From: a virus
Virus record (IMG/VR): IMGVR_UViG_3300025153_000204
Span: 1 to 47,549 of that record
DNA length: 47,549 nt
Strand: one strand, 5' to 3'
Shown in pieces: positions 3,851 to 37,870 of the stretch; the stretch's first letter is position 1, and every line of letters begins with the position of its first letter. Made by a program: the position numbers and the translations under genes. The notes under the pieces were generated by a model, which saw only the letters and a list, made by a program, of their open reading frames with translations, was not told the DNA's origin and made no database searches.

Positions 3851-3852
3851 CC

Positions 3853-5831: not shown

Positions 5832-5873
5832 TAACTTCAATACAATCAATCAAATTATTAAAAACAAATTATC

Positions 5874-6362: not shown

Positions 6363-6364
6363 CT

Positions 6365-6568: not shown

Positions 6569-6592
6569 TTTATTATTTAAGCCCATTTAATT

Positions 6593-6865: not shown

Positions 6866-6878
6866 ATAGCCAAAAACA

Positions 6879-17946: not shown

Positions 17947-19965
17947 TTATTGGCCTTTTAACCCGGCTTTCTCCTTTTGAAGAAATTCTGCATATCCGTA
18001 AGGGTATCGCCATTCTTTTTGGTAACACCGGTAATTCAGTAACACATCCGCAAGATTGGCAATCATGCCACCGGATTTTAGTATTTCACACCAAAGGTGG
18101 TAATCCTCAGCAAACCCGGTTTTTGTTTTTCCGTACCCGCCAACATTGAGTAAGGCAGACTTTCTGATCGCCACTCCGGGATGATTGATAAACCAGGTGC
18201 CGGGCATTTCAAATGCACTTTGCCTGGTTACAACCGGTGGGTGAGTGGTCACCATCTCTTTCGCCCCGAAAAACTGAACCTGCACTCCACATACGTCAAA
18301 ATCTTCATTGGCCTCCAAAAATTCAACCAGCTTACTTATCAGATTTGGTTCAGCAATATCGTCACAGTCCATCCGAACTATAATATCACCATTACAGTAT
18401 CCTAAACCAAAATCAAGCACTTCCGAAAACTGAAGCTTTACATCTTTAACAACGAGACATGCAATTGGAATTTTCGGTGATGATTGTTCCATAACAAACC
18501 TCTCAATGATTACAGTTTGACTCAGCCTGCAATCATGGTTAATTACCAACAACTCAATCTCTCCCTCGTAATCCTGATTTGCAATACTCTCAATTGCTTT
18601 TTCAATCCACATTTCGTTACCATCCCGGATTGGCATCAATACGCTCACTTTTGGTAATTCCGGTATAGGTGCGATTAATTGCGTCAGAACCGGCACGGAC
18701 GCAATTAATTGCGTCTCTACTGTTGATCCTTTAATTGTATTATCAATCAGTTCAATTGCCTCATCTGAAGCGCCACTTTTCGCTTTTACCTTCTCTTCGG
18801 TCTTCCGACTCCCGACTTCTGTCTTTTTCCCCATATCTAAAAAATTTATAAAAAGTTTTTCCTGAAATTTCAAACTCCTGAATTCGCTCACATATTGTGC
18901 AGCATCATTTCCCATCCGTTCCCTTTCCACAGGATGTTGGTGTAAATGGTTAATTGCCTGTACAAACAACTCAATCTCTGCTGGTGAATAACACGGTTCA
19001 GCTAATATCTCTTTGATCTCCAATCGCTGCTTTATCGGAACAACGATTCCTCTGCCGGTCATAACATTCGGGATATCTCCAATACCTGGCATAACGCAAG
19101 GGATTCCGGCACCCATCATTTCCAAAAGTGCAATGGGAAGACCTTCGGATGGTGAGCAGTTTAATCCAATGTCAAAAGCCTGCATAGTTTTATACACGTC
19201 TTTCGTCGCAAGATTTCCGGTTATGGTAACCCGGTTTTGAAACTTTCCGGCTCCAATGGTTTGAATTAATCGTTTTACCCGGCCATGATAACTCTCGCTT
19301 GCAGCTGACGCGCAAACGCCTCCAACAATAAGCAACCGGGCATTGATCGATGCAGGAAGCTTTGATAATATTTTCACGGCATCAAGGATATTCTTGTCTG
19401 CAGCTAAACGCGTAATCATTCCGATCACAAAATCCCTATCTTTAAATCCGAACTCATTCCGTACGGTAGTATGGTAGTGAGACTCTGCTGAAATAAGGTC
19501 AAAATCCACGCAATTAGGTATAACTACAAATTTTCGTTTGTCCATAACTCCATAACTGATAAACGAATCCATAATTTTTTTATGAATCGCATAGTATCCG
19601 TCGGTACCCTTTTCAAACTTCACTACCTGATTATACACCCAATTAATATCGCTGTGCAGAATCGTTAAATACCTGAAACCGATTTTCTGCTTTAATTGAA
19701 TCACCAATTGCGTAATGACAAAGAAATTGCAATTGAAAACCACATCGCAACCCTGAATTAATCGCGAAACCATATCCAGGGTTGGATTCATAGTTACAAC
19801 CTCAATCCTTATTCCGGTAGCTTTGATGAGTTCATAAAACCTTCCCGTTGTACCACTCAGCACAATTACATCAAATCCATTAAGATAAGCCATCAAGACA
19901 TGGTGATACGAAACAAATTCAGCCCCACCCACATCATTTACGCCGATCAAAAAAGCTATTTTCAT
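17947..19965 (-). CDS. Fused glycosyltransferase (GT4-type plus GT2-type)
   Basis: Two enzyme domains in 672 residues. Residues 1 to about 375 have a GT-B fold of the GT4 family: IGVNDVGGAEFVSYH at the N-terminus, VIGMITRLAADKNIL in the middle, and the donor-binding SPSEGLPIALLEMMGAGIP near 265-285. A linker follows (about 375-430), partly formed by inserted palindromic repeats. Residues about 430-672 are a GT-A domain of the GT2 family: KVSVLMPIRDGNEMWIEKAI opening, and the metal-binding MDCDD near 535. Both would transfer sugars from activated donors; acceptors are unknown. The gene overlaps its upstream neighbour by 4 bases inside a phage structural run. Glycosylation of virion proteins or host surface glycans is inferred. 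Confidence 0.85.
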   Translation of the reverse strand: MKIAFLIGVNDVGGAEFVSYHHVLMAYLNGFDVIVLSGTTGRFYELIKATGIRIEVVTMNPTLDMVSRLIQGCDVVFNCNFFVITQLVIQLKQKIGFRYLTILHSDINWVYNQVVKFEKGTDGYYAIHKKIMDSFISYGVMDKRKFVVIPNCVDFDLISAESHYHTTVRNEFGFKDRDFVIGMITRLAADKNILDAVKILSKLPASINARLLIVGGVCASAASESYHGRVKRLIQTIGAGKFQNRVTITGNLATKDVYKTMQAFDIGLNCSPSEGLPIALLEMMGAGIPCVMPGIGDIPNVMTGRGIVVPIKQRLEIKEILAEPCYSPAEIELFVQAINHLHQHPVERERMGNDAAQYVSEFRSLKFQEKLFINFLDMGKKTEVGSRKTEEKVKAKSGASDEAIELIDNTIKGSTVETQLIASVPVLTQLIAPIPELPKVSVLMPIRDGNEMWIEKAIESIANQDYEGEIELLVINHDCRLSQTVIIERFVMEQSSPKIPIACLVVKDVKLQFSEVLDFGLGYCNGDIIVRMDCDDIAEPNLISKLVEFLEANEDFDVCGVQVQFFGAKEMVTTHPPVVTRQSAFEMPGTWFINHPGVAIRKSALLNVGGYGKTKTGFAEDYHLWCEILKSGGMIANLADVLLNYRCYQKEWRYPYGYAEFLQKEKAGLKGQ
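18669..18715. repeat. Two in-frame palindromic repeats within the glycosyltransferase linker
   Basis: A perfect 18-base palindrome GACGCAATTAATTGCGTC lies at 18698-18715, and a partly matching copy (GCGATTAATTGCGTC) at 18671-18685. They encode the repeated peptides TQLIA-SVPVL-TQLIAP in the linker between the two domains. Related palindromes occur at 20809 and 20942. Confidence 0.7.
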
Positions 19966-20747
19966 ATTTCTCCTCTTTCAATCAGTATTTTTTTAATCAC
20001 AGATAATTCATCCTCAGCATCTGCCATTTTTGCCCGGATCTCATCTTTGTTTTTTGTAGCCTTGTCGTTAAGCTGTTTTTTATAGTATGACATTTTACGT
20101 GGTATATTATTGCCGGTGATTTTACCCAGGCTAACAGTACTCATTGATAAGTATTTCTCTCTTATTTCCCGGGATTTAAATTCTGGTAGCTTCCCCAAAA
20201 TTGTCCCGTGAATCTTAAAGTAGTTTAGCTCCTCCCAGATTTCCCGGTTAAGAATGTAGGCATCCAAAACGCCTCGTGCTTCCTGGTAACACGCATCCAA
20301 ATTATTTTTATCCAGATCGTACAGTTTATCCCGGCCACTTCGGTAATCATCATAGACCGTTAGCATTTTATTGACCAGTATTGCAAACTCCTCAGGGCAA
20401 TCTTTTCTCCCCAAAAACGGGAATTCATCCCTGAGCTTTATTGTTTTTTTCTGCTGGACAATCTCTTTTTCTCTCGCTTTCAGCTGTGGAGAATCATCGG
20501 GTGTAATTACAAGATCGTTACCCAACTGTCCGGCTTCGATCAGCGTAAATATCTCTTTTGATGATACTTTAACCTTATTCGCAAACTCGCAGACCAGTGT
20601 TGCCAAACCTTTTTCAACTCCCTTTGCTTCAATGTTTCTGACATAAAAGGAATTTCTATTAAATGTGAGAAACAACGATAACCCGGTATTAAAATCACCG
20701 CCAGATCGTGCCCACTGTTCCACTTTTTCTTTTATCCCAATTTCCAT
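19962..20747 (-). CDS. Hypothetical helical protein (261 aa)
   Basis: A helical, Lys/Glu-rich product starting MEIGIKEKVEQWARSGGDFN. It has a hydrophobic patch FANKVKVSSKEIFTLIEAG near 75, a helical charged middle, and a C-terminal coiled coil (MSYYKKQLNDKATKNKDEI). It overlaps the fused glycosyltransferase by 4 bases, so they share an mRNA. No family recognised. It lies between two glycosyltransferase genes, which suggests a role in the same modification or surface function. Confidence 0.6.
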   Translation of the reverse strand: MEIGIKEKVEQWARSGGDFNTGLSLFLTFNRNSFYVRNIEAKGVEKGLATLVCEFANKVKVSSKEIFTLIEAGQLGNDLVITPDDSPQLKAREKEIVQQKKTIKLRDEFPFLGRKDCPEEFAILVNKMLTVYDDYRSGRDKLYDLDKNNLDACYQEARGVLDAYILNREIWEELNYFKIHGTILGKLPEFKSREIREKYLSMSTVSLGKITGNNIPRKMSYYKKQLNDKATKNKDEIRAKMADAEDELSVIKKILIERGEI

Positions 20748-20830: not shown

Positions 20831-21616
20831 TCATTTCTCAAACCTGCATTTTTCGGGATACATTCCCTGTATAAAATTCTTCAGGCAATCATCCAAACCA
20901 TCATCATTGTGATTCAAATAATATTTCCCTGTGCAGATGTGAGAGACGCGATTCAATCGCGTCTCTATAAGCTGACACTCTCCAGGTCCGTACGAAAAAT
21001 CGTTTTCATATCCGTAAAACAGGGCCCGCTCCACCTTCCGGTCCTTGAACATCCTTTCATAAGGGAAAACATTGAAATAAAGAGTAGAAGTCAATAACCG
21101 GTTTTCTAACGGATCAAACATTTCAAAAATCTCCCGCATTTTATCTTTCTCAAAAACCTCAGGGCAATGCGTTTCTGTCATATATCCGTGATACCCCAAT
21201 CTAACCACCGCGTCAGTGCTTCTAAATACCTGGTCGCGCCAAACAATTCCTCCGGAAACAAATTCTCCGCTGTTTAATTCATCGTTGGTGAATAAGTATC
21301 GCGTGATCTGCATTTGCTTCAAAGTCCTGGCGCCGGTAATATAAACATCGTCATACATCCTTAAAAACTTATCCGGGCTGTCATTGTGGTCGATATATAA
21401 CTTCAGCTTTGACACTGCATCATAAGTAGTTCCGGCATTTGTCATTGCTGTTTTTTGATGGGGGATATGCTTTACATTTCGGACCCACTCTGGCAGATCC
21501 CCTACAATCCAAACTTCATAATCTTCGTTTAAAAACTTTTCCAGGCTACGAAGCGAATAACGCAACTCTTCCCACCTGCTTGCACTTGCCAAATAGGGAT
21601 AATATACTCCAATCAT
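20831..21616 (-). CDS. Stealth-like glycosyltransferase / sugar-phosphate transferase
   Basis: 261 residues. The N-terminal part (LASASRWEELRYSLRSLEKF, EVWIVGDLPEW) is typical of the opening of Stealth-type proteins. The acidic motif FLRMYDDVYI near 85-94 corresponds to the NDD-type catalytic motif, and TETHCPEVFEKDKMREI near 145-160 matches the conserved HxP region. In Stealth proteins these motifs belong to sugar-phosphate transfer in capsule synthesis. A GT-A-like enzyme acting on a surface glycan or virion protein is inferred. Residues near 225 are encoded by an inserted palindrome. It lies downstream of the decoration protein, separated by a strong terminator, so it may be expressed separately from the capsid genes. 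Confidence 0.65.
   Translation of the reverse strand: MIGVYYPYLASASRWEELRYSLRSLEKFLNEDYEVWIVGDLPEWVRNVKHIPHQKTAMTNAGTTYDAVSKLKLYIDHNDSPDKFLRMYDDVYITGARTLKQMQITRYLFTNDELNSGEFVSGGIVWRDQVFRSTDAVVRLGYHGYMTETHCPEVFEKDKMREIFEMFDPLENRLLTSTLYFNVFPYERMFKDRKVERALFYGYENDFSYGPGECQLIETRLNRVSHICTGKYYLNHNDDGLDDCLKNFIQGMYPEKCRFEK
20942..20966. repeat. Palindromic repeat inside the Stealth-like gene
   Basis: AGAGACGCGATT and AATCGCGTCTCT form a perfect inverted repeat with one central base. In frame it encodes IETRLNRVS near the C-terminus of the product, so the element has entered a coding region without breaking it. Confidence 0.7.
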
Positions 21617-21683: not shown

Positions 21684-21720
21684 TAAAAAACAAGGGCACA
21701 ATGATATCACTGTGCCCTTG
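21684..21720 (-). terminator. Intrinsic terminator of capsid/decoration genes
   Basis: On the - strand, CAAGGGCACA pairs perfectly with TGTGCCCTTG around a 10-base loop and is followed by TTTTTTAAA. It lies 23 bases after the stop at 21744 and closes the capsid-decoration transcript. Confidence 0.85.
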
Positions 21721-21743
21721 CGCATTTTTAGTAAAAACTAAGA

Positions 21744-22274
21744 CTAAGCGCCACTTCCTTCAACCGATGGAAGAGCACCCGTGTAGTGAATGATTTTGTC
21801 GCCTGCAAAAAGAGATTCGAGTTTTACGGAATTCGAATCTTCCTTCTCGTCATCTTTCTGCTCGTGGTTTAGTTGCAAAGGATTGCCCGGCCAGCCAAGC
21901 AGCTTATTGAACGCAAGGTCGGGATATACAACAATCGCCATCAGATTCTCATTAACATTGTCGTTGATAAACTGCGAATATTGCAGACTCGATCCCGGAT
22001 GATCAAACTCAACAGTATGGATAAATCCTTTTTTGTCGGCCTCACCACTTGTTTTATCTCCTACCTTGATGGTGTTTGGAGTTGCATAGATCTCGATGGC
22101 TTTTGCCCCTGCTTTTAAAACCAGAGGACCGATAACAGATACGCCATCGACTCCTTTGACCGGCTTGCTCAACAAATCGTCAGTCCTGATCAATATGATG
22201 TAGGAGCTTTTAGGATTCGGGCGACCGGGATTTCCGTTTTTTGATATTGATTTCTTTACACTAATAAATGCCAT
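21744..22274 (-). CDS. Probable virion decoration protein (176 aa)
   Basis: The product starts with a polar, Asn/Pro/Lys-rich arm (SKNGNPGRPNPKSSY) followed by a strand-rich core and a charged loop, ending PSVEGSGA. The last six residues before the stop (EGSGA plus small residues) match the end of the capsid protein just upstream. It lies directly downstream of the capsid gene and upstream of a strong terminator. Gene position and the beta-rich composition fit a capsid decoration or head-completion protein; this is inference, because I do not recognise a named family. Confidence 0.55.
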   Translation of the reverse strand: MAFISVKKSISKNGNPGRPNPKSSYIILIRTDDLLSKPVKGVDGVSVIGPLVLKAGAKAIEIYATPNTIKVGDKTSGEADKKGFIHTVEFDHPGSSLQYSQFINDNVNENLMAIVVYPDLAFNKLLGWPGNPLQLNHEQKDDEKEDSNSVKLESLFAGDKIIHYTGALPSVEGSGA

Positions 22275-22348
22275 AGCATCAAATATTTAAAAAATGAATT
22301 ACCACAACGGAGCCACCACATTATAGGGTAGCGCCGTTGATCTTAATA

Positions 22349-23971
22349 CTAAGCCCCGCTTCCTTCAGCAGATGCAATCGCTGCAAAAACCCACTCAGCA
22401 ACAGCAAATCCGACTGCCAACCAGAACTCTCCGAAAACCCTCACTTCGTAATTTTGAAGTTGCAGGAACAGCTTGGTAGCTCCACTTGCTTCGTTGATAT
22501 GATGAAGCTCGATAAAGTTCTCCTTCGGTGTCGAAAACAAAACTCCCGATCCCCTCATATTTTCCAGCGGAACAATCGTGAGATTACTGAAGTCAATCTT
22601 CACTTTGTTCATATCCGAATCTTTGGTCATCGGGAACATCTCCCTGTATTTCTTTCTTCGGACTTCATCCATGTCAGGATCACAGAAGACGTTCAATCCA
22701 ACCTTTGCAAGCGTCGGGTTTTGCTTTTTAATCCATTTCGCATACTCCTCAAAGTAATTGACCGAATTATCTTCACTCCAGGCAATCGTCGGAGTCCAAA
22801 AATTCATTGCTGAATCTACCGAAGCATATTCTTCTTTCAGTATAGTCAGAAAGCCGTCCATACTCTTTTCAGGAACCTGACCTGCACCACCTTCAGTAAC
22901 AGTTGAAGGATCTATTTCCACGAATTTCCCCGTGGCAATCATTTTATACTCAATATCATCCGAGACACGCGGACGAAGGAGTTCGTCGACAACATATTTC
23001 GTAACAGGCATCTGATCCGGGGTCAGCTCTTCATTGTACAGGTAAGTCAGGTATCCGCCCGTAATATCATCAGGAACAATCGGCAAGTTGATCTTATGCC
23101 TTCTGTTCACAATTTTAAGCGGGGTCACTTTAACCTTGCCAAGCGGTGTCCACTTCGCAATAAACTGCTGAACAACAGAATCAATACGCGCTTTTGCATC
23201 CCGCCACTCATTAATAGCAAGCACCTTGGTCATATACACCCTGCTCTCAGTTGGCTTCAAAATCTCTTTGTAGATCTTCATCCTGCGGGCCGGGTCACTC
23301 AGATAAGTGCCAAACTCTTCGTTAATCTCCGACACATCGATTGTATCGGCTGGTCCTCCACCCATGGTCTTGTTTCCAAAGGTGCCATTAGTCATTGCAA
23401 CAATGGCCGCACTCGAATTGCCGTTGATGTAATCCGTGGCCATCTTATTGTGAAAATGTTTCTGATTCACTTTAAATGCTATACCAACTACCTTTTCAAC
23501 AGCGCTATTGGCATGTGCTTCGGGCTGATCAGCCTCACTCCTGGCTGCCAGAATTACATTTTCTTTCTCAAGCTTAACCTTTTCAGCTTCCAAATCAGCA
23601 AATTTCAGATCAGCAGCAGCTTTCTCTTTTAAAACCCCATCAAGCTTCACTTTAAACTCTTTTTCAAGCTCACCCTTAATCGCCTCTTTGTTGGCATTCA
23701 GCTCAGCAAAAACATCCTGCCGAATGGCACCAACCAGGGCATTGGCGATCAGATCCTGCTGTGCCATCTCTCCACCGGCATTTGCATCAGCCAATTCGTC
23801 AAACGACTGTTTGAACCGGTCGGCAAACTCACCACCGGCATACTTCATTTTTGCATTCAGATTTTCGCACTCTTCGGTACTTAAAGTCAAATGCCCTTCC
23901 TTGTCTGTGCTGAACTCTTTTTTCCCAAGAATCCCCAGCACAATTAATCCCAACGTTTTAAATGGATCCAT
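22349..23971 (-). CDS. Major capsid-like protein with N-terminal scaffold region
   Basis: 540 residues. Residues about 1-80 are polar. About 85-150 is a charged coiled coil (KEKAAADLKFADLEAEKVKL), which resembles the scaffolding delta domain of HK97-type capsids that is removed by the prohead protease. The rest, about 165-540, is a mixed alpha-beta region with features of a capsid fold, such as EWRDAKARIDSVVQQFIAKW and later strand-rich segments with LENMRGSGVLFSTPKENFIE near 485. An S49 protease gene lies immediately upstream, and a probable decoration gene downstream. The C-terminus ends EGSGA. No direct sequence hit can be run here; the assignment rests on composition, size and gene order. 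Confidence 0.65.
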   Translation of the reverse strand: MDPFKTLGLIVLGILGKKEFSTDKEGHLTLSTEECENLNAKMKYAGGEFADRFKQSFDELADANAGGEMAQQDLIANALVGAIRQDVFAELNANKEAIKGELEKEFKVKLDGVLKEKAAADLKFADLEAEKVKLEKENVILAARSEADQPEAHANSAVEKVVGIAFKVNQKHFHNKMATDYINGNSSAAIVAMTNGTFGNKTMGGGPADTIDVSEINEEFGTYLSDPARRMKIYKEILKPTESRVYMTKVLAINEWRDAKARIDSVVQQFIAKWTPLGKVKVTPLKIVNRRHKINLPIVPDDITGGYLTYLYNEELTPDQMPVTKYVVDELLRPRVSDDIEYKMIATGKFVEIDPSTVTEGGAGQVPEKSMDGFLTILKEEYASVDSAMNFWTPTIAWSEDNSVNYFEEYAKWIKKQNPTLAKVGLNVFCDPDMDEVRRKKYREMFPMTKDSDMNKVKIDFSNLTIVPLENMRGSGVLFSTPKENFIELHHINEASGATKLFLQLQNYEVRVFGEFWLAVGFAVAEWVFAAIASAEGSGA

Positions 23972-24038: not shown

Positions 24039-24953
24039 TTATCCCCTTCGCATCATCGCCATCCCGGAAGCCACCTCAAGTGCGTCATACAACGTCCCAA
24101 AACCATCAGCCAATCCCTCTTTCACAATATCCTCACCTTCATATAGCTTTCCACGATAAACATCCGAATCTTCACTGATTTTCCCTTTTCGGTTCTGCTT
24201 TACGGTATTGATAAACCTGGTAGCAGATGGAATCAGAATATTATTAATCAGCGGCTCCGGGTTATCGTTATCCACCAACTCACGGTATTCGTGATTCTTC
24301 AAATCACTCTGGGGAGCATAGATCGTCTTGTGCTTAATCCCTTTCTTCTCAAGCTGCTCCTTGTAATCCATATAGGAAACGTATACTCCAATACTGCCAA
24401 AAGCAGAACTTATCAGATTATCGGCCATGAGGTAGTCACAAAACGAGCCAATATAATAGGCAGCACTGGCAACCATATCACCATGCAACACTACGGGTTT
24501 TCCTTTTGACTGCACGTACTTTATCGCTTCGATAAAGGGTGGCACAGCACCCTCTGATCCACCTCCTGAATCGACATCCAGAACCAGGGCTACAATATTT
24601 TTCAGTTCACCGGCCTTGTAAATAGCAGGTACAATCTCATTCGCGCCATAAGTACATTGTGAACCATATTTCAGAAACTCTCCGATAATCGGAATAACAG
24701 CCACGGATCCAGCCGTGGCTCCATCCATTGCCATAGCCGCTGACCGGCCACCAATAGCAAAAGCTTCCTTCGTGAAAGAGTAAGCAGTGAGAGAGAGGTC
24801 CTTCTTTTGATTCAGTAAGGCACCAGGTTTCATATTCCCATTCATAACCGACATCAGCCAGGGGAGATAAACATTCTCCACCAATCCCCGGTCAACCATC
24901 ATCCGATCCCGCATTACCTCTAATAATAGATTCGCCATTTGATTTGAATTCAT
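24039..24953 (-). CDS. S49-type (SppA/ClpP-like) prohead protease
   Basis: 304 residues. Motifs of the phage S49 family are clear: IIGEFLKYG, then VLDVDSGGGSEG near 120-130, GDMVASAAYYIGSFCDYLMA near 158-177 (nucleophilic serine in the SAAYYI segment) and FGSIGVYVSYMDYKEQLEKK near 187-206 with the lysine that completes a Ser-Lys site further on. In phage heads this protease trims the scaffold region of the capsid protein. It lies 67 bases upstream of the capsid gene, as expected. No signal peptide, so it is cytoplasmic and not a cellular SppA. Confidence 0.85.
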   Translation of the reverse strand: MNSNQMANLLLEVMRDRMMVDRGLVENVYLPWLMSVMNGNMKPGALLNQKKDLSLTAYSFTKEAFAIGGRSAAMAMDGATAGSVAVIPIIGEFLKYGSQCTYGANEIVPAIYKAGELKNIVALVLDVDSGGGSEGAVPPFIEAIKYVQSKGKPVVLHGDMVASAAYYIGSFCDYLMADNLISSAFGSIGVYVSYMDYKEQLEKKGIKHKTIYAPQSDLKNHEYRELVDNDNPEPLINNILIPSATRFINTVKQNRKGKISEDSDVYRGKLYEGEDIVKEGLADGFGTLYDALEVASGMAMMRRG

Positions 24954-26422: not shown

Positions 26423-27130
26423 CTAAACTATTTTTGAGACCAATCCTTTAAAATTTTTATCAATCAACTCTTCTACTTCTATTTCAGAGACTTCCCACAG
26501 AATAGAAATATGATTGTAAATCAATGAGATATTACTTTGCCCAATAAATGGAAAATCTGTTTCTGTTAACATCAATTCTTTGGGAATCTTTTTAATAATT
26601 TCTCGCCCATGTTCAGATTCAAGCATTGCTGAATTGATTGAAAAAAAGAAGCCTGAATCTATTATCCGTTTTAAAACACTAAGAGAACCAGAATACCAAT
26701 GAAAAATAGCATTTTCAATCTTCTTTTCTAGCAACATTTCTAAAGTTTCCTTTTCTGCTCTTCTGGAATGTAAACTCAAAATCTTTCGTTGCCCTTTAAT
26801 GCAGTTAAGTACATAGTCAAAACTTTCAATCTGAGTTTTTTTTGTGGAAAATCCTTCTCGTGAGAAGTCTAAGCCAACTTCTCCAATGTATGACGTTTGA
26901 TTAAGATACTCAGCAAATTTCGAATATTCTTTAGGATGTTCACTCGCTTTTAAAGGATGTAGCCCTAAGGCAAGCCTAATATGTCTGAAATTTTTCAAGT
27001 GATTTGCACCCATCTGGAAATGACTTGGCAGGTTTGTCATTCCGATTGTTACTATTTTCTTTTTCTCATTATCTGAGATATATTTTTCTGGATTTTGTGC
27101 CATATCAAAATGGCAATGAACATCTATCAT
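26423..27130 (-). CDS. qatD: QatD: TatD-family DNase
   Basis: 235 residues. The metal-dependent hydrolase motifs of TatD are visible: DVHCHFD at the N-terminus (H5, H7), YIGEVGLDFS near 82-91, SLHSRRAEKE near 117-127, FHWYSGS near 141-147 and the final TETDFPF near 190. TatD proteins are 3'-5' DNases. The start overlaps the QatC stop by 4 bases (ATGA), and the order matches the published QatABCD anti-phage system of Gao and co-workers (2020). It is the last gene of that operon. Role inferred from the family: DNA processing in the Qat response. Confidence 0.9.
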   Translation of the reverse strand: MIDVHCHFDMAQNPEKYISDNEKKKIVTIGMTNLPSHFQMGANHLKNFRHIRLALGLHPLKASEHPKEYSKFAEYLNQTSYIGEVGLDFSREGFSTKKTQIESFDYVLNCIKGQRKILSLHSRRAEKETLEMLLEKKIENAIFHWYSGSLSVLKRIIDSGFFFSINSAMLESEHGREIIKKIPKELMLTETDFPFIGQSNISLIYNHISILWEVSEIEVEELIDKNFKGLVSKIV

Positions 27131-28497
27131 TTTATTCCTAAGATATTTTTAATTTCAACACTTCCTTTTTCTTGAATCCATTTATTGATTTCAATCCGAG
27201 TTCTTTTCACAACATGTGCGTACTCACTAACTTTTTCTAATGGTAAAGTTCCATTTACCAAGAGGTTTTTTTCAATATCCTCAATTGTTAATGGTTTTTT
27301 CATATAATCAATAAAAGCCGGAATATCTGGTAATTTTTCCAAAGGATATTTTATTGGATTAAAAAGATTCGTTCCTATAATTTCCTTATCTAGTCCAATC
27401 TTATGTAAGGCAACTCTGCGGTAAATACACGGCATACATATTCCACAATGATTTGTACCTTCCTCAATATCTCTTATATCTTTTCGAGTTCCCCTTTTTC
27501 CACAAGAACATGAGCTGCTATACGTTGCTAATATAAAATTTCTATCTCTACATTCTTCTACCATTTCACCTTTTGTTTTCATTTCATAATCATTCTTTAT
27601 AGGATGATTCAAACCTAATTTGGAAATAAAACTTTCAACTTTTTTCAGATAATATGGATGAGCTGTCCTTGTACTACAACTACTCCGTCTTGAAGGTGTC
27701 AACGGATGATTTAATGAAATTGTTCCATTTTCCGGAATTAAAATCTCCATTCCATCTCTGATTGAATGAGTCACAAAAATTGCTTGACAAAGAAACAGAA
27801 AAGACCTACTTCTAAGGGTTGTTTCTTTATTTACGGAATTCCCATTTATATCAAGTTTAGATAAGTCTACTCTTGTTTGTATTATATGATATTGATTCTT
27901 ATATTTTGGAAGTAATTTTACATTAAGCTTGTCCTGGTCTGATTTAGGTCCTTTAAAAATAGAATCATAGTGTGAAACAAGAGCTAATCTATCGTTTGAT
28001 TTTGACAACTGGTCAATTACTCCAATTAAAGAATCTAAACCTCCAGAGAAAAGACTTACTTTTTTAAATGCATTACGAAATTCATCTTTATAAACTTTTC
28101 CCTTTGTTTTGAGTAAATATAGAATTGATTTTTCTCTTTTTACGAATGAGATGCTCCAGTTGTCCCCTGTTAGAAATGAAAGTAATTGTTCCAAATCAAT
28201 TTTACCAGCATTGAAAATCTCAGGAGATTCAACCGGAAATACAACCTCGATATCACGAGACCAATGATTAATTGAAAAATCTTTTCTTGGCAATAAAATA
28301 TCTATGCCATAAACATAACAACCTAATAAAAAAACATCGAATGCCACTCCACTTTTTTGTTTAGTGAACTTATATAAGTTTTCGTATTCAATATTCAATG
28401 GAACGGATATCTCATTACCTTTTGAATCCTCAAATCCTAGTTTGATTCGAGAAAATTCACCTTTATGCGCGTTAGGAATATCAATATTAATTTTCAT
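27127..28497 (-). CDS. qatC: QatC: QueC-like ATP-dependent enzyme
   Basis: I take ATG at 28497 as start: it gives MKINIDIPNA and an 11-base overlap with QatB, while the longer frame from 28527 overlaps by 41 bases. The product has 456 residues. The PP-loop SLFSGGLDSL (SGGLDS at 151-156) marks an adenylating enzyme of the QueC family. A cysteine cluster CSCGKRG...HCGICMPC near 338-370 fits the QueC zinc site. An N-terminal region of about 140 residues, unlike cellular QueC (about 230 residues), is specific to defence versions. QueC makes a 7-deazaguanine precursor; what QatC modifies is not settled. An ATGA overlap connects it to QatD. Confidence 0.9.
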   Translation of the reverse strand: MKINIDIPNAHKGEFSRIKLGFEDSKGNEISVPLNIEYENLYKFTKQKSGVAFDVFLLGCYVYGIDILLPRKDFSINHWSRDIEVVFPVESPEIFNAGKIDLEQLLSFLTGDNWSISFVKREKSILYLLKTKGKVYKDEFRNAFKKVSLFSGGLDSLIGVIDQLSKSNDRLALVSHYDSIFKGPKSDQDKLNVKLLPKYKNQYHIIQTRVDLSKLDINGNSVNKETTLRSRSFLFLCQAIFVTHSIRDGMEILIPENGTISLNHPLTPSRRSSCSTRTAHPYYLKKVESFISKLGLNHPIKNDYEMKTKGEMVEECRDRNFILATYSSSCSCGKRGTRKDIRDIEEGTNHCGICMPCIYRRVALHKIGLDKEIIGTNLFNPIKYPLEKLPDIPAFIDYMKKPLTIEDIEKNLLVNGTLPLEKVSEYAHVVKRTRIEINKWIQEKGSVEIKNILGIK

Positions 28498-29227
28498 GAT
28501 TTTCGAATGCTTTAAGTGTGTCTTCAAAAATATTCTTAACTAAACTATCTCCTTCTTTTCCTGGCCAATCAATTTTACTTAAGTCTCTCTTTAGTGCTAT
28601 ATTCTTTAATTTTTCAACTAGAAAATTTTTTAGTTGAGTATAAAAATTAGCAGTAGCCTGTCCTCCTTTCTCTTCTATCAATTTTTCATAAAAATCGATA
28701 GACAAATGCTCATAAATATAGTAGGCATAATACTTTATTAAGAGTTCTTCAGTTCCATATTCGTTAATCTTTGCTTCAAAATTCTTTTCTAAATCTTGAA
28801 ATGTCTTTGCATCACTACCTATTTCTTCCAGTAATTGTCTTTCAGCTTCTTTTGCTGCAGTTTCATCTAATGTAGATGCAACGCCGGAACAATATTCGAG
28901 TAAGTAATTTATTGCATCACTTGCTTTTGTGTTATCGGAAAATTCAAAGCCAATATTGGATAATGCAGGCCTAAGACCCTGTGACCTTACATTATTTAAA
29001 AATCCGCCTAATTTTCTTGCAGTTTTTAATCCTGCCTTTCCTGCAATTCCAGATCTTCCTCTTCCTCCATAACTTGAACCTCCTAGTAATGCTGTAAAAT
29101 TGGATGTTATGTTATTGAAATTAGTAGAAGATATTTTTCCGGTGTCACAAGCATGAGTGACGCTGCTACTTAACTTTGACCAGTTTGGGTTGCCATTAAT
29201 CCCACCATAAGACTTTGAAGTTCCCAT
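28487..29227 (-). CDS. qatB: QatB
   Basis: 246 residues starting MGTSKSYGGINGNPNW, the Gly/Ser-rich opening I associate with QatB proteins. Then a Gly-rich stretch (LLGGSSYGGRGRSGIAGK) and a long helical C-terminal half (about 85-246) with Tyr-rich helices and acidic ends. No catalytic motif and no membrane segment. The start codon overlaps the QatA stop by one base (TAATG). QatB is a required component of the Qat system, and its molecular role is unknown to me. Confidence 0.85.
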   Translation of the reverse strand: MGTSKSYGGINGNPNWSKLSSSVTHACDTGKISSTNFNNITSNFTALLGGSSYGGRGRSGIAGKAGLKTARKLGGFLNNVRSQGLRPALSNIGFEFSDNTKASDAINYLLEYCSGVASTLDETAAKEAERQLLEEIGSDAKTFQDLEKNFEAKINEYGTEELLIKYYAYYIYEHLSIDFYEKLIEEKGGQATANFYTQLKNFLVEKLKNIALKRDLSKIDWPGKEGDSLVKNIFEDTLKAFENHEN

Positions 29228-31065
29228 TATAATTTACGTTTTTGTGTCTTTTCTAGGAATTGGTTAAATTCAATATGTTTTACATTGAACCTTTTCATAG
29301 ATTCAGTTACTGCTGGTGGAATTTTCTTTCCAACGCTTAATAACGTTTCAACATAGATTGATTTACAATCTATACCTTCTTCCAATGAGCAATTAAATAT
29401 GTCATAATATCTCTGTTTTTCAGGTTCTGTGATAATTCGCTGTTTAAGTAAATTGTAAAATGCTATTTGATCATTATTACTAAGTGCTTTTAAATCTTCA
29501 TTTAAGAATTTTTTAGTAAGTTTAATCGGCATTCCATCTGGTTCGAGTTTTAACATTAAAGATTTAACTATAGGTGGTACCAATAGATTGCTTTGCATAG
29601 ATGATAGCTTATCTCTTGAAATCCAATAATAATCTCTTAAGTCAACTTTAGAAAGGTGAGGCTTAACACTTAGCCAATTTATTATTTTGGCTTTATTCCA
29701 TCCCTTTAATTCATCTGGAAAATTCAAGTTTTTATTTCCTTTAGTGCAGCATATTTCTTCCAATATACCCAATTCAGTTGCAAGACCTTTATTGGATATT
29801 TGCCAATTATACAACGTTTCAAAAAGTTTTGGTTCCGCATATTCAAGAATCATCAGCTTTGCTAAGAAGTCATCTTTGAAATCTTTGATATTTGCTATGG
29901 CTGCCAATTTCTTCCTTAGCATAAATGTATTTAAAAAGCGCTTAATCTGTCGTGGATTACCATATAGGCTTTCCGAAATAATTGGCGACAGTTTGGCAAT
30001 TAAGGAAACATTTTGTTCTAATTTAGCAGCTTTGTCAGCACCTACTGCTTGTTTGACTTTTGTAAAATCAAAAACAGAATATCTATCTTTTTCTCGAAAT
30101 TTTTTAAATGCTTCAAGTACCGTTATAAAATCAGATGAGTCGTCTAAGTCATTCTCACAGAAAAGCAAAGTTATATATGTTTCTACTTCATAATCAGATA
30201 ATTTTGGTAAATTATAGGGTATTTGGATTAGTTTTTCAAGATAGTCATTCACAATTCTATCATTAGTGTTTTCGGCACTACCATCAATAATTTTATTCTT
30301 GTATCTATATTCTATGGCGTGCCTAACGATACGAGGGTCTGCACCAATGACAAAGGCAGTATTTTTCACATTTAAAAATAATTTGATTGCTTCTAGATTA
30401 TCAATAATTCTGTCTGGCAAGCATCTGTCAAGGTCATCAATAATAATCACAAGTTTTTTTATTTTGGACTTTTCCAGTAATTTTTCGAAGTCATCTCGAA
30501 ACTTACGAACTAAATCAAACTTATTTGAATCATCAGTATCAGTTATGAATTGTTTAAGAAAATTTTCAGTATCATGTCCTTGCAATTGAGCTACCAAATC
30601 TTTTGGATTTTTTACGGCATCCTTTAACCCATTTACTATTTGAGGAATAGCACTTAATCCGCTTGACATAAGAGCAGCTGTTGCAGGTAAAGCAATATTT
30701 TTCATGCTAAACCCAATAACCCGCATCCAATTAACCGACTTGAATAACTTTTTTATATCTTCTTTTAATCCCTCTCCAAATTTTTTCTCATCCTCAAATG
30801 CTTTTATAATTGTTTCGAGCAATGCCGCCTTTGCGTCATCGTATCCTTCAAATACCCATCCATTAAAAAAAAGGCATGCTGTATTATCCTCTTTTTCAAA
30901 TTCACTTTTGAGTACTTCTAAAATACTTGATTTGCCACTTCCCCAGTCTCCAAATAGTCCAATTGTAAGAGGCAGCATTTTATCATCGTTGATGAGTTCC
31001 TTTATTAAGTTTGCATGTACATCAAATCCTAAAAAATCTTTATCGGTTATGTTGTCTGTCCACAT
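29227..31065 (-). CDS. qatA: QatA: KAP-family P-loop NTPase
   Basis: 612 residues. Walker A is GDWGSGKSS (39-47) and Walker B is LVIIIDDLDRC (205-215), the KAP signature with the DDLDRC motif. A hydrophobic insertion (about 115-145, FSMKNIALPATAALMSSG) between the two resembles the membrane-associated insertion of KAP NTPases. The C-terminal 300 residues are helical. It is the first gene of the QatABCD operon, and likely the sensor or energy module. The A/T-rich leader region upstream also holds a small 44-residue frame. Confidence 0.9.
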   Translation of the reverse strand: MWTDNITDKDFLGFDVHANLIKELINDDKMLPLTIGLFGDWGSGKSSILEVLKSEFEKEDNTACLFFNGWVFEGYDDAKAALLETIIKAFEDEKKFGEGLKEDIKKLFKSVNWMRVIGFSMKNIALPATAALMSSGLSAIPQIVNGLKDAVKNPKDLVAQLQGHDTENFLKQFITDTDDSNKFDLVRKFRDDFEKLLEKSKIKKLVIIIDDLDRCLPDRIIDNLEAIKLFLNVKNTAFVIGADPRIVRHAIEYRYKNKIIDGSAENTNDRIVNDYLEKLIQIPYNLPKLSDYEVETYITLLFCENDLDDSSDFITVLEAFKKFREKDRYSVFDFTKVKQAVGADKAAKLEQNVSLIAKLSPIISESLYGNPRQIKRFLNTFMLRKKLAAIANIKDFKDDFLAKLMILEYAEPKLFETLYNWQISNKGLATELGILEEICCTKGNKNLNFPDELKGWNKAKIINWLSVKPHLSKVDLRDYYWISRDKLSSMQSNLLVPPIVKSLMLKLEPDGMPIKLTKKFLNEDLKALSNNDQIAFYNLLKQRIITEPEKQRYYDIFNCSLEEGIDCKSIYVETLLSVGKKIPPAVTESMKRFNVKHIEFNQFLEKTQKRKL

Positions 31066-31102
31066 TTTTTTTGTTTTTACATTTTTTTAATACGATATAA
31101 TT

Positions 31103-31237
31103 TCAGTGCATTTGTTTCATTAACCTCATAAGCAACTTATGTTGTTTTATGATTAGCTTGTTAAGCTTGTTATACTCTGTGATGATGTAATTGCCATTTT
31201 TATTATTTAAGTGCCTGTCGATTGAAATAATCTTCAT
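31103..31237 (-). CDS. Small basic protein (44 aa) coupled to the 111-residue gene
   Basis: The frame starts at ATG 31237, whose last bases form the TGA stop of the upstream 111-residue gene (ATGA overlap). It ends at TGA 31103-31105, 37 bases before qatA. The product is basic and helical, opening MKIISIDRHLNNK and ending LMKQMH. A perfect tandem 9-base repeat (AGCTTGTTA x2, 31155-31172) encodes YNKLNKL. The stop-start coupling argues for real translation. No family recognised. It is too short for most gene callers. Confidence 0.5.
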   Translation of the reverse strand: MKIISIDRHLNNKNGNYIITEYNKLNKLIIKQHKLLMRLMKQMH

Positions 31238-31569
31238 TTTTCTAATAAGCTGAATATATCATAGTGAATTTGTCTAATTGCATTATCCAAATCTTTTTTG
31301 TACTCATGTTGTCTTACTTTTGCAGCATTTTTTTTAATACTCATTTTGTAAGAGTAATCTGCATAATAAACTTCTTTGCCTAAAGTATGGTATAAAGCGG
31401 AATGAATCATTGAATAATGCTCACCATCATCTATTTCATTCAATTGATTAATTAGGTCAAGAATCTGCTTTACCAAATATTCCAAGCTATAAGGTTTTTG
31501 ATGTAAAGATTGCATATTACTTATTTCGTTATACAACTCATTGATTTTCCTTAAGTATTCTTCTTTCAT
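31234..31569 (-). CDS. Small helical protein between BREX and Qat (111 aa)
   Basis: A helical product opening MKEEYLRKINELYNEISNMQ. It is moderately basic at the C-terminal half (MSIKKNAAKVRQHEYKKDL) and ends in a hydrophobic helix FSLLEK. No signal peptide or membrane helix. It lies 127 bases downstream of brxL and 168 bases upstream of qatA, coupled by ATGA to a 44-residue frame. The pair could be an accessory regulator or an antitoxin-toxin-like unit; nothing in the sequence fixes this. Confidence 0.6.
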   Translation of the reverse strand: MKEEYLRKINELYNEISNMQSLHQKPYSLEYLVKQILDLINQLNEIDDGEHYSMIHSALYHTLGKEVYYADYSYKMSIKKNAAKVRQHEYKKDLDNAIRQIHYDIFSLLEK

Positions 31570-31695
31570 TGTAACTTTGTTTTTGAATATTTTAAATATT
31601 TTTGAGTTTATTTCGTCTATCTATGAGTGTATCTGTAGAATTCGATTGCCTGAATTTATTTTCCCCTTATGCTCCATAATAACTATATTTTAAAT

Positions 31696-33741
31696 TCAAT
31701 CCAGTAACGCCTTAATCAAGCAATCTTTCAAATCAGTGTAATACTGAATATTGATCTTCGTGATCATATCATCTGATAATTCATTCAATTGCTTCCTTGC
31801 ATTTAAAGGAATAAGTATGGTAGTTGCTCCTTTTTCAACCGATAGTTCAGCAAGATTTACAGCATTGTACACTATATCAAGCGAGCCACCCAGATTGAGT
31901 TGACCAACAATGACCAGACCGCCTTTTGTCCCTTTTTCGAGGATAGCACTGCACAGTGCAATTAATACGGCCATTCCCATACCATTGCCACTTTTGGATG
32001 CATCGAATACGCGTAACTGAACCGTAAATTCGCGTGAACGAGGATCTCTGTCGCCAACTAACTCCTTTGTTTTGCTGTATAAATTTTGTTCTGCATACTT
32101 TACGCATTCCTGGAATTGCGGTGGTGCTGGCTTATTTAATATTTTGACTCCGGAACCCGGACCAATATTAACTTCTATTTTGTATAAACCGGTAGCTTCT
32201 TCTTGTCCGCCAGCATTTAGTGCCCATATTTGGCCAGGAGGAAGCGGATCTTCTCCAATTGTATTTTCGCTATGGATTTCAGGAGTTGTCACAAATGTCT
32301 CAACACCATTTTCTCCAATACGGTAGCTAAAATGGGTATTCCGAAACTCTGCTGAACCAATTCGTTTCTGTTGTTCTTTTACCCTTCTTCTGTATTCCAA
32401 TGAAACCTTTATTGCCCATTCCAATAATTCATCGGAAATCGGTACTTCCGGATTAGGTTGCATTAATTTCAACAAACCATTGAGGGTTTTATTGACTGCC
32501 GATGTGTCGCGGCCACTTAGAGCGCCACCATAATCAATACGTGATGAAACGGATGTAATTCTGCTGATATCACGTAATCTTGTCCAACATTCAGCAAGGA
32601 AATCACTTACTAAACCAAAATGATTTGTGAAGAATACCTTGTTTAGTTTTGGAAAATCCCAGCCTGGCACAAAAGCATGAATACGGTCCATAAAAGCCGT
32701 ATCATCCCTCATTTCCTGTGGAAGCGGACCAAATAGGTGTCCTATTCTTTGTTGATGCTCGACATCGACTTCAAAATTCCCCACCATAACGATGCCACCA
32801 TCTGCACGGATAGGTTCCTTGCCGCGACTGAATTCCCCACTTTCCATGTAACCTTTCATGATGTTCACGCCATCTTTCTGATCAAACGAAACACCTGAAA
32901 CTTCGTCAAAGCAGACCACATCATACTTACAAACGAGTCCTCGTTCTCCGCTTCCCATATTAACAAACATCTTTGCAACAGTGGCTTTACCACCGGAAAC
33001 CAAATGCGAATAAGGTGAAATCTGTTGATATAGATGCGATTTTCCGGTACCTCTCGGTCCCAGTTCTATCATATTGTAGTTGCGTTCCAGGAATGGGATC
33101 ATCCGGACAAAAAGCACATTCCTGGCTTTTTCCGTTAATTCGGCTGGCTCCATTCCAACACTGCGGATTAAGAACTCTTTCCATTCTTCCAATGTAAAAA
33201 ACTCCCGCCCTTTATATAGAATATCTAGCACATTTCTTTGTGACAATTGAATAGGGCGAATATTTGCCACACCAAACGGACGTCCACCATTTTCCTGGGC
33301 GATAGCTGCATCATATACCAATTCAATCTCGGCATAAAACCCTCCTGTCAGCATCCGGTCGTTGGCATTAACAGCCTCGGCAGAAATACGAACCTTGTTC
33401 AATTGTAAACTTGGTAAAGTTGCCACGTAACTATCAGTAACCGTGTCCAGTTTGGCCGTGATGATATCAATAATTTTAATTGATCCTTTTTCCCTGGCTT
33501 TCGATTTGAAATATTCTTCCTCTCCAGGTCGAACTGTTCTATCCTGGAGTTGCCTTTTCACAATCTCCAAACCTTCCTGAATTTCTCCTTCATCCGTGGT
33601 TGCACAATACCGACCTAAAAGAAATTCGATGACATAGGTGGGTATAGGGTATGTTTTGCGGAATTGTTCCAGCAAATCTTTGCGTACAACAAATCCTTCA
33701 AATGCCTTGGTTCCTAATTGGTCAATTTTATCTAATTCCAT
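31696..33741 (-). CDS. brxL: BrxL: AAA+/Lon-related BREX protein
   Basis: 681 residues, the usual length. Walker A is GPRGTGKSH (228-236) and Walker B VVCFDE (275-280). The C-terminal domain has the Lon-like fold (SKSGNGMGMAVLIALCSAIL, then LNLGGSLDIVYNAVNLAELS). The serine of the Lon DGPSAG box aligns with glycine in SGNGMG, and no lysine is seen at the usual place, so proteolysis is doubtful. BrxL has been described as a ring-forming, MCM-like DNA-binding motor. It is the last BREX gene, 11 bases after pglZ. Confidence 0.92.
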   Translation of the reverse strand: MELDKIDQLGTKAFEGFVVRKDLLEQFRKTYPIPTYVIEFLLGRYCATTDEGEIQEGLEIVKRQLQDRTVRPGEEEYFKSKAREKGSIKIIDIITAKLDTVTDSYVATLPSLQLNKVRISAEAVNANDRMLTGGFYAEIELVYDAAIAQENGGRPFGVANIRPIQLSQRNVLDILYKGREFFTLEEWKEFLIRSVGMEPAELTEKARNVLFVRMIPFLERNYNMIELGPRGTGKSHLYQQISPYSHLVSGGKATVAKMFVNMGSGERGLVCKYDVVCFDEVSGVSFDQKDGVNIMKGYMESGEFSRGKEPIRADGGIVMVGNFEVDVEHQQRIGHLFGPLPQEMRDDTAFMDRIHAFVPGWDFPKLNKVFFTNHFGLVSDFLAECWTRLRDISRITSVSSRIDYGGALSGRDTSAVNKTLNGLLKLMQPNPEVPISDELLEWAIKVSLEYRRRVKEQQKRIGSAEFRNTHFSYRIGENGVETFVTTPEIHSENTIGEDPLPPGQIWALNAGGQEEATGLYKIEVNIGPGSGVKILNKPAPPQFQECVKYAEQNLYSKTKELVGDRDPRSREFTVQLRVFDASKSGNGMGMAVLIALCSAILEKGTKGGLVIVGQLNLGGSLDIVYNAVNLAELSVEKGATTILIPLNARKQLNELSDDMITKINIQYYTDLKDCLIKALLD

Positions 33742-33752
33742 AATAATCTGTA

Positions 33753-36068
33753 TTATCCACCAACGGTGGTTAGTTTTTTATCAAGGATTCTTCCGGTTTC
33801 ATCTAAAAGTACGATAATTACTGCCTGCGATTCATGATCATCATTGACCATTACAGAACCTTTATTTCCGCTTACCGATTTGTTTTTCGATTCTACAATC
33901 GATGTGCTTTCATCGTTGTATTTAGTGCGTATATCAATTGTGAAACTTTCATGTGCACCTTCGGTTAGTACGGCACATTTTAGGTTGACCCATTTTACAT
34001 CCTTTATTTTAGCATTTACTTTTGAGCCAGCCGAATTTTCAATAAATATGGTGGGTACGAGACATTCATGCAATGAAATACCCCCATGTGCAAATTCTTC
34101 ATTGGCTCTAAAAAATGAGATGCCTGGCGCATACGCAATAAATATTGAAGGGTTCCAACGCCAGGGGAGATGCAACAAATCTGTTTTCACACCTTCTTTG
34201 ATGAGTGCGCAACGACCCCAACGTGTCTCTGTTAATCCTTCATACAATTGCGTTTTGGGTAATCCTCCTGGTAGCAAAAGCCAACCGTGATCTGTTACAA
34301 TCTTTATTCTTTTTATTCCCTGATTAAATGCATGATCGATAACCTCCTGAACCTGTTCAAAAAGTTCTTCGATACGTTTTACCATGTTTGACTGTTCTTC
34401 GTGCCCTTTTGTATCGATATCTCCAATCTCCTGCCAGGATTGCTCTTCAGAATTAAGATCGATGCCGGTTGCAATATATTTAAAACTATAGGTAACCAAA
34501 GATTCTCTGAACGCAAGTGTTTGTAAATCTTTGCCTAATTTGAGCTGCGGACGGAAATCTTTTATATCACTCGTTTCACAAACTGCCGTTGCCATAGGCG
34601 AAACGTTAGGCTTAGCCGTTGGCGTTACGGTTGGAATAGCAGACCAGTTTGTTCCCAAAGTTGCCTGGTATTTGAATTTTAATAATCGTGTACAAAATTC
34701 CTGGGCTAATTCAAATCGGAATGCATCTACAAATAGAACAAAAGATTCGGTTTCAATAGATGCAGTCTGGCTGGTAAAAATCGAGGCATCTTTCGCCACC
34801 AATTCCTGAAATTTCTTTGTGACTAATTCAAGCCAGGGTTGGTAAATACATTTAATCAATGACTTGATTAATATTTTGTCTTTTTCTGTTTTTACAGTAG
34901 CAAGTGCTTTCCGCATGGTCTGATCGGCTAAATAGCCATCCGATATATAATAACCCCTTAACTCATCGATGGAGGAAGATGGGAAAGATGCAGTGGCTTG
35001 TACTGCCATTACGATTAAATACTGCAGGGCATTCGCCAATGGAGCCTGACCTAATTCAAACCAAACCCAATTTCTGCGAACCTGGTGGTTTTGTTCCAAC
35101 ACGTTCAACAAGGCAAGTGCCTCTTTAGGCTGGAGTTTCGATGCTTTGAGAAATGCTTTGCGCAGTTCCTCTTCTTTTGCCTCGTTTACTTGTGGCCAGC
35201 TTTCTTCCGGAAATGCAAACATGCCGCTGCCTAAATCATCGGGTTTGGCTAATCGAAGCAATGCTTCGATTTCAGGATATCTTTTAGGAGCGGTGGAATA
35301 CATCTGCCAAACGTATTTCCAGGCATTTCGTTGTGAACCTAATTTTTCGGCGATGGCTTTAATATTGCGATAATCCGGTGCAAAATCATATTGAGATTGG
35401 CAAAGACAGGCAAAAACCTCCCTTTTACCCAGATCCATACTTTGTAAAAACGAATCGCCTTTGCACATCCATTTCAAAATATTGGGGATAATATCGGGGA
35501 ATAACTGGTTGTTAAGGTATTCTGCATCAATGATCGTCTTGCCCTGTAATATTTCATCGTCCTGAAATATCGTTGGTAATGCTTTTTTTAATGCTCCTTT
35601 GGTTGCCGTATCTTTTAAAACCTTTAATCCAAGCCCATTGTTTGGATTTTCAACAAAGGCAAGTATCGACCATTCTTTCCCGTTATCCTGTGTAAAAAGG
35701 GTGCCCGTATATTGGTATTCAAGCAGAGGCTGAAACTCAAGCCCGGCGTTTTCCACATTTCTTAAATCATTTTTTGCAACACCCGGCAGGTAAATAATCG
35801 GTGTGGCATCTTCATCCCAGTTGGCTTCGGGAAGCGTTTTGGCAACCATACATTTCAGCCAAATAGATGGCCCTTGCTTTTTTGACGGATCATAAGGACC
35901 ATAAATCAGCAGCTGCGGAAAATCAGCCTGCAAAACGGGCATTACTTCTGTCCATTGCAGTTCAGGATCGGGCCAAAGGATTACCTCTGGTTTCACCATG
36001 ATATTACTATTGTGCTGCTCTGCTTGCTTTAAAGCCTGAATTACCTTATCGTATATGCTTTGACTCAT
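33753..36068 (-). CDS. pglZ: PglZ: BREX alkaline-phosphatase-superfamily protein
   Basis: 771 residues, the length of type 1 BREX PglZ. The metal-dependent phosphatase-superfamily core lies at about 440-620: FVLFVDAFRFELAQEF (D448), SAIPTVTPTAKP near 476-488 with a candidate nucleophilic threonine, and IVTDHGWLLLPGG near 595-608. Residues 1-430 form the N-terminal helical domain used in BREX complex contacts. It starts 3 bases after the stop of the AlbA_2-type gene and is followed by brxL. In E. coli BREX, PglZ is needed both for methylation and defence. Confidence 0.92.
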   Translation of the reverse strand: MSQSIYDKVIQALKQAEQHNSNIMVKPEVILWPDPELQWTEVMPVLQADFPQLLIYGPYDPSKKQGPSIWLKCMVAKTLPEANWDEDATPIIYLPGVAKNDLRNVENAGLEFQPLLEYQYTGTLFTQDNGKEWSILAFVENPNNGLGLKVLKDTATKGALKKALPTIFQDDEILQGKTIIDAEYLNNQLFPDIIPNILKWMCKGDSFLQSMDLGKREVFACLCQSQYDFAPDYRNIKAIAEKLGSQRNAWKYVWQMYSTAPKRYPEIEALLRLAKPDDLGSGMFAFPEESWPQVNEAKEEELRKAFLKASKLQPKEALALLNVLEQNHQVRRNWVWFELGQAPLANALQYLIVMAVQATASFPSSSIDELRGYYISDGYLADQTMRKALATVKTEKDKILIKSLIKCIYQPWLELVTKKFQELVAKDASIFTSQTASIETESFVLFVDAFRFELAQEFCTRLLKFKYQATLGTNWSAIPTVTPTAKPNVSPMATAVCETSDIKDFRPQLKLGKDLQTLAFRESLVTYSFKYIATGIDLNSEEQSWQEIGDIDTKGHEEQSNMVKRIEELFEQVQEVIDHAFNQGIKRIKIVTDHGWLLLPGGLPKTQLYEGLTETRWGRCALIKEGVKTDLLHLPWRWNPSIFIAYAPGISFFRANEEFAHGGISLHECLVPTIFIENSAGSKVNAKIKDVKWVNLKCAVLTEGAHESFTIDIRTKYNDESTSIVESKNKSVSGNKGSVMVNDDHESQAVIIVLLDETGRILDKKLTTVGG

Positions 36069-36071
36069 ATT

Positions 36072-37718: not shown

Positions 37719-37870
37719 TTTCTTTGTTTATTTCATCTTTGATTGAATTTCTATTTGAAAGCTTTTTAACCCTTGTAAAAGTAGTACTGTTATTCTTCCC
37801 GTCGGCGCCGGCAGTTGTTTCCAAAATGGAAATAACTGAATTATATGATTTTCCATATACGGAATGCTGT

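Follow-up and report, generated by a model that had tools for sequence, protein, structure and literature searches.

Why should two neighbouring and otherwise unlike viral genes encode proteins with the same C-terminal end? The question is raised by IMG/VR virus record IMGVR_UViG_3300025153_000204, the whole of which (47,549 bases, hereafter the window) was analysed. Two genes on its minus strand, at 22349-23971 and 21744-22274, encode a 540-amino-acid (AA) capsid-like protein ending AIASAEGSGA and a 176-AA protein ending LPSVEGSGA. The common EGSGA tail, noticed in a first-pass annotation of this DNA, was confirmed from the last codons and their translations; the E-G-S-G-A-stop codons lie at 22349-22366 (GAAGGAAGCGGGGCTTAG) and 21744-21761 (GAAGGAAGTGGCGCTTAG), both on the minus strand. 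The next gene, on the same strand at 20831-21616, encodes a Stealth-type protein. Comparison of sequences established that the tails are conserved and matched within a phage, that the gene of the Stealth-type enzyme occurs together with them, that tail serines are lost with the presumed catalytic motif of the enzyme, and that the enzyme is a homologue of N-acetylglucosamine (GlcNAc)-1-phosphotransferase. From these comparisons we think it probable that the tails are acceptor-and-docking tags for the phage enzyme, which would attach a sugar-phosphate to serines of the head and the tail proteins in a new variant of virion glycosylation.

In the window, a degenerate pattern of the 18-base tail gave two matches, which were the two tails, with zero mismatches. 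Shuffled sequences, for which two mismatches were permitted, gave a mean of 1.59 matches and were thus an unsuitable yardstick, and a protein-level control was used. Homologues were drawn from annotated phages, IMG/VR and genome contigs. Scans of viral contigs with single proteins found no relatives, and scans with alignments did recover them. Every one of the 16 genome-contig loci was in a Bacteroidota-titled record. A possible prophage relative with an intact enzyme occurs in Sphingobacterium (L112 or L118). The gene pair occurs in two forms, a short form with short tails (71 loci) and a long, beta-domain form (36 loci), examples of the latter being Flavobacterium phages 6H and laban6-1 and Bacteroides phage BT-TP2. 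Near copies and some contigs retrieved twice are counted in these numbers; dereplication of the second protein at 90% leaves 48 and 23. For tail counts, 75 loci with both proteins were reduced to 53 by dereplication of the capsid-like protein at 90%, and to 51 by dropping L019 and L110, in which the neighbour protein is of the long form and the enzyme is absent (the downstream flank of L110 is 1,532 bases).

A terminal Gly followed by Val, Ile, Leu, Ala or Met was found in 47 of the 51 capsid-like proteins and in 47 of the 51 second proteins, compared with 13 of 523 control open reading frames in related loci, and the last residue was one of these five in all 51 proteins of each kind. One or both proteins lack the Gly-aliphatic end in L011, L087, L108, L116 and L121. 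Between phages the letters of the tail vary widely (GGGL, SGSGV, SSQGGGV, EDPGV, ETM). Within a phage, the last residue is identical on both proteins in 37/51 cases (permutation mean 13.5, p ≤ 5e-5, kinship uncorrected), the last two residues in 36, the last three in 23 and the last five in 4. Variable tails among homologues, which the first-pass annotation named as speaking against its idea, are therefore literally present, and what is conserved is an aliphatic, mostly Gly-aliphatic, end and the likeness of the two tails within a phage.

The same annotation had offered either a docking or processing tag or a short duplication as the origin of the tails. A DNA duplication or gene conversion around both stop codons would suit the window taken by itself, in which the last 18 bases of the two genes are 89% identical, as against 46% for the preceding 24 bases and 30% for the 30 bases after the stop. 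Over the 51 loci no clear excess of this kind was observed: identical tail residues were encoded by identical codons in 60 of 149 cases with 48.4 expected from pooled codon use, and bases after the stop were identical at a frequency of 0.284 within a phage vs. 0.274 when shuffled between phages (421 of 2000 shuffles were as high). As codon sharing is near expectation, selection appears to act on the protein and not through DNA duplication. This candidate was rejected on the codon and downstream-base tests, and we leave it almost no probability. The part of the earlier proposal that stood is a functional C-terminal tag, supported by the pattern across 51 diverse loci, by the matching within a phage and by the adjoining enzyme gene.

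The enzyme gene was present within the examined flanks of all 71 short-form loci and of none of the 36 beta-domain loci (48 and 23 when dereplicated). For 22 of the 36 beta-domain loci (18 dereplicated, some of them fragments) the whole records were searched with one model, phrog_7999, which gave 0/22, the sensitivity of this search to enzymes that have lost the Asp-Asp (DD) motif described below not being established. The enzyme family was set by single-linkage BLAST and the profile was built from the same members, so that members match by construction; a profile of the members with intact DD recovered 14 of the 15 DD-less enzymes. In four loci with a short-family capsid-like protein and a long neighbour (L019, L057, L058 and L110), both the Gly-aliphatic end and, in the examined flanks, the enzyme are absent. 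No second protein was recognised in 16 more loci, most of which resemble Polaribacter phage Leef_1; of these, only L049 has the enzyme. There, at 1575-5715, consecutive proteins end IDSE (on the Leef-like capsid protein), TDSE and VESE and are followed by the Stealth-type gene. After this gene L049 has two proteins that resemble family 2 glycosyltransferases, as labelled by eye. SAS-type tails are carried by both proteins of L128, L133, L134 and L135, members of a deeper, enzyme-bearing sub-family of capsid-like and tube-like proteins; L127 is similar and L131 has half of the arrangement.

The window enzyme (261 AA, phrog_7999) is related to GlcNAc-1-phosphotransferase (GNPT), by profile and by predicted fold, and sugar-1-phosphate transfer is its predicted activity. 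Against Pfam Stealth_CR2 it scored 28.3 bits (E-value 2.2e-6), under the curated cut-off of 39.4. A 40-row enzyme profile matched human and zebrafish GNPT as well as CpsY, with E-values of 8e-8 (9bgg) and 3e-7 (7s6n) for GNPT and 5e-5 (8j2n) for CpsY. The enzyme model had a predicted local distance difference test score (pLDDT) of 90.5, a Foldseek match to CpsY at 2.1e-10 and, in comparison with GNPT 7s6n, a Z of 20.6 with a root-mean-square deviation of 3.1 over 235 residues, the next fold group being at 11.9. The NDD and H.P motifs, which we take to be catalytic, align between the enzyme profile and GNPT/CpsY; the window enzyme carries YDD in place of NDD, with DD at residues 89-90, His at 150 and Pro at 152. 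An FPxxSxFE stretch at the C-terminal side is a weak match to Stealth proteins.

The state of the DD motif was read by eye from the alignment, in agreement with a text pattern. Among the 51 enzymes, DD was kept in 36 and lost in 15, L062 and L086 being examples of loci with a DD-less homologue. Both tails contained Ser within their last 10 residues in 36/36 loci with DD vs. 1/15 without it (Fisher p 1.2e-11, kinship uncorrected), and, as a control, in both ends of 121 of 460 neighbouring gene pairs. H.P was kept in all 36 DD-intact enzymes and in 8 of the 15 DD-less ones. On the capsid tree the DD-less state requires seven changes, at least five of them forced by well-supported branches, and on a tree built without the tail residues it requires six. 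In five independent pairs, Ser in both tails tracked DD in four or five and never the reverse. The Gly-aliphatic end was still found in 13 of the 15 DD-less lineages for each protein. As Ser is lost with DD but the Gly-aliphatic ends are kept, two roles are suggested, the serine going with catalysis and the terminal residues with the presence of the protein.

The same retention of the end without catalysis would also be expected if the transferase-like protein were chiefly a virion component, docked non-covalently on both C-termini through the Gly-aliphatic end, with its catalysis secondary or lost. Docking alone has no need of Ser, and Ser is in both tails in every one of the 36 intact cases. 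Moreover, in the window a terminator-like stem of 14 pairs with a T-run (21690-21721, minus strand; a consensus match only) separates the structural genes from the transferase-like gene, an arrangement that would fit low-level production of an enzyme. We regard docking of this kind as unlikely.

Under the explanation that we prefer, of acceptor-and-docking tags, the capsid-like and the tube-like protein would each display a flexible Ser-containing C-terminal peptide with an aliphatic, mostly Gly-aliphatic, end. The Stealth-type enzyme (20831-21616) would recognise this end by binding and transfer a sugar-1-phosphate, the sugar presumably coming from a nucleotide sugar, to the tail serine. Head and tail would thus be phosphoglycosylated and the groups possibly exposed on the virion surface; in the clade of the window, a two-domain glycosyltransferase (17947-19965, minus strand) may extend the glycan. 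Known Stealth enzymes use sugar hydroxyls as acceptors, so that a serine modified directly would be an acceptor of a new kind. Ser-linked sugar-phosphate occurs in some protists. Alternatively, the tail serines might receive a host sugar first. A stronger formulation is one that we hold only tentatively and would not bet on: that across a wide group of Bacteroidota phages a GNPT-class enzyme reads a mostly Gly-aliphatic C-terminal tag shared by capsid and tail tube and puts sugar-1-phosphate directly on the tail serines, and that in several lineages a dead binder still holds the tag, the serines having been lost.

Besides the acceptor preference of Stealth enzymes, several results weigh against the proposed tags. 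L108, which is the closest relative of the window (86%), has a tube-like protein (L108 9653-10228) that ends SSGAGGGFYNA. The enzyme of L121, DD-less, was not recovered by the profile of intact members. In the SAS-type sub-family one of the two proteins finishes in A, H, F, N or I and its partner in Y or W; such ends are not aliphatic as a rule, and the rule of the aliphatic end is therefore limited to the short form. L131 has an enzyme with DD, yet its capsid-like tail (PAPPAH) is free of Ser. Among distant enzyme-bearing relatives, represented by the best 80 of 213 with the gene called in 71, the gene just upstream encoded a Ser/Thr-rich end in 11/34 cases vs. 62/351 (p 0.06), a weak enrichment. 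When the capsid-like tail was considered alone, Ser tracked DD in two of the five independent pairs, with no difference in the other three; for the tube-like tail alone the count was three to five. The sign test on the pairs gave p 0.06-0.125; because only five pairs exist, this test is unable to reach 0.05. Finally, the split between short and long form in part tracks phylogeny.

Two side observations belong to these loci. The tube-like end of L108 reads as a tail extended beyond its usual end. In L160, the gene (4160-6994) that immediately precedes an enzyme homologue encodes a 944-AA protein with the end DPGSGSGSGSGSGDVS, and no capsid or tube protein of the family was recognised there.

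A further candidate is that the tails are short, flexible Gly/Ser ends, retained or evolved to aid solubility or spacing and then inherited, the association with the enzyme being a phylogenetic coincidence. The joint gain or loss of enzyme and tail does fall mostly on a small number of deep branches; moreover, related loci lack independence and the pair test is not significant. Coincidence accounts poorly for tails whose letters vary greatly yet tend to match within a phage, for Ser in both tails that tracks the catalytic motif through several separate losses, and for the rarity of such ends among control open reading frames; we judge it quite unlikely.

The names of the two structural proteins were also evaluated. 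Of the labels given in the first-pass annotation, capsid-like is likely right as judged from sequence, and decoration-like is probably wrong, the fold of the 176-AA protein resembling phage tail-tube proteins. The 540-AA protein is probably the major capsid protein, from its position behind a protease gene and its homology (26% identity) to the gene 42 product of Leef_1. The Leef_1 record labels gene 42 as a YceI family protein, and its gene 41, the protease, carries the label protease/major capsid protein, which weighs against a simple transfer of names to the 540-AA protein. Sequence search of the capsid-like protein against the PDB gave no meaningful match. Searches of 40 capsid-like homologues against PHROGs gave weak matches, one to phrog_264, a major head protein (0.0018), and two to phrog_771, a virion structural protein. 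In a published comparison, Flavobacterium phage 1H and Leef_1 were grouped on the structure of their capsid proteins (PMC9855967).

For the 176-AA protein, an AlphaFold model (pLDDT 83, low at both ends, including the last residues that form the tail) gave VIA-align matches of Z 6.6 to 8.7, and the matches listed were phage tail, baseplate, neck, injection-system and Hcp proteins. The top Z of 8.7 was to the 80alpha baseplate, and lambda gpV and the SPP1 tube were at about 8. These scores are moderate, and the tool cautions that a Z near 8 may reflect a common arrangement; more weight is carried by the consistency of the rows. Foldseek matches of the model to the PDB were weak (E 0.01 and above), and among viral models 30 were at or below 0.001 (best 5e-10), most of them unnamed and one named major tail protein. 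We conclude with moderate certainty, from the predicted fold, that this protein is a tail-tube protein. A decoration protein was unsupported by the fold searches, none being so named among the matches listed.

Directly upstream of the capsid-like gene lies a gene for an S49 head-maturation protease (24039-24953, minus strand; phrog_53, 6.1e-37), whose family is found near the capsid-like gene in 48/53 loci. This constancy would agree with tails that serve as processing or recognition signals for the protease. Three annotated beta-domain phages, which are without tails or transferase, also have the protease beside the capsid-like gene, so the protease does not account for the switch between the forms, and the link between DD and Ser points to the transferase and not to the protease. 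The protease tag is thus disfavoured, and we consider it very improbable. Encoded before the protease is a third protein, and four of the 14 members of its family have Gly/Ser-rich tails, ending GI, GL, SV and GL (L060 3341-3763, L066 4571-4993, L068 4034-4450 and L090 1447-1866); this protein may be a further substrate.

On the other side of the enzyme gene, a conserved neighbour to which no function was assigned (19962-20747, minus strand) belongs to a family present in 50/53 loci. It is followed by the gene for the 672-AA two-domain glycosyltransferase, a possible glycan-extending enzyme with one domain like glycosyltransferase family 4 (GT4) and one like family 2 (GT2). Relatives of it were found near the transferase-like gene in L108, L109 and five of eight further loci of close homologues (L126, L127, L130, L133 and L134). 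Within the examined flanks of the 51 short-form loci, a further GT2/GT4-like gene related to that of the window or of L049 occurred in few (the window, L108, L109 and L087), so that in most phages the Stealth-type protein would work by itself or together with enzymes of the host. The window also carries matches to a Qat defence system (QatD, QatC, QatB and QatA, 26423-31065; the QatB match is weak) and a BREX system (BrxL, PglZ, PglX, BrxC, BrxB and BrxA, 31696-45850). With Qat and BREX side by side and adjoining the head genes (26423-45850), the record resembles that of a phage or prophage carrying a defence island.

The proposed tags would give a testable function to phrog_7999, annotated as of unknown function, and to a motif that recurs in many uncultured Bacteroidota phages. 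In the open-access literature searched, we found no paper on Stealth/GNPT-type enzymes in phages or on glycosylated capsids of Bacteroidetes phages, and no pairing of a tail tag with such an enzyme. If the proposal is true, the sugar coating of head and tail, known from mycobacteriophages, is more widespread and can employ a different enzyme class with a short peptide tag; such a coating could have a bearing on how long the phage persists, on immune recognition and on attachment to the host. The pair of tag and enzyme could serve as a tool to label protein C-termini.

Among known systems, the phages of the long form, which are Duneviridae-like (6H, laban6-1, BT-TP2), have the same neighbouring gene pair, and a homologous module is appended to the C-terminus of both proteins. 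They differ in that the module is the size of a domain rather than a short tag, and in that a transferase gene was not found. The long-form second protein has an extra C-terminal domain, predicted as beta from the look of its sequence, and the capsid-like neighbours bear homologous domains. In hhalign comparisons of the C-terminal domains of capsid-like and second proteins (29 pairs), probabilities of 92.7 (E 6e-8) and 73.4 (E 4e-6) were obtained, with controls at 0.1 and 0.2; in a single-profile search, 7 of 34 long-form capsid-like proteins reached E 0.01. C-terminal domains are also duplicated within the capsid-like protein of long-form loci (L002, L006, L010, L020-L023 and others), a larger module in the place of the tag.

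With the Stealth proteins GNPTAB and the CpsY exopolysaccharide phosphotransferase, the window protein shares the fold and the aligned NDD and H.P motifs. It is smaller, and its predicted acceptor is a virion peptide, in contrast to a lysosomal glycan or capsule.

Virion glycosylation in mycobacteriophages was reportedly described by Freeman et al. in 2023. In published accounts of Che8 (gp110), Corndog (gp38) and Myrna, phage enzymes glycosylate the capsid and the tail tube (PMC12363180, PMC11256854, PMC11600133, PMC12691614). Phage records with homologues of the window enzyme number 31 for Mycobacterium, 7 for Gordonia and 1 for Microbacterium; identities are 25-37%, and most alignments cover part of the protein. 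One of these phages, Fionnbharth, has a capsid protein ending DAGSGS and a major tail protein ending QLVGSV, a suggestive but single case. The two systems would be alike in having a phage-encoded transferase with capsid and tail-tube proteins as targets. They differ in the host group and in the conserved, matched C-terminal end that both proteins have here; the enzyme described here is of the Stealth/GNPT class, and the modification is a predicted one.

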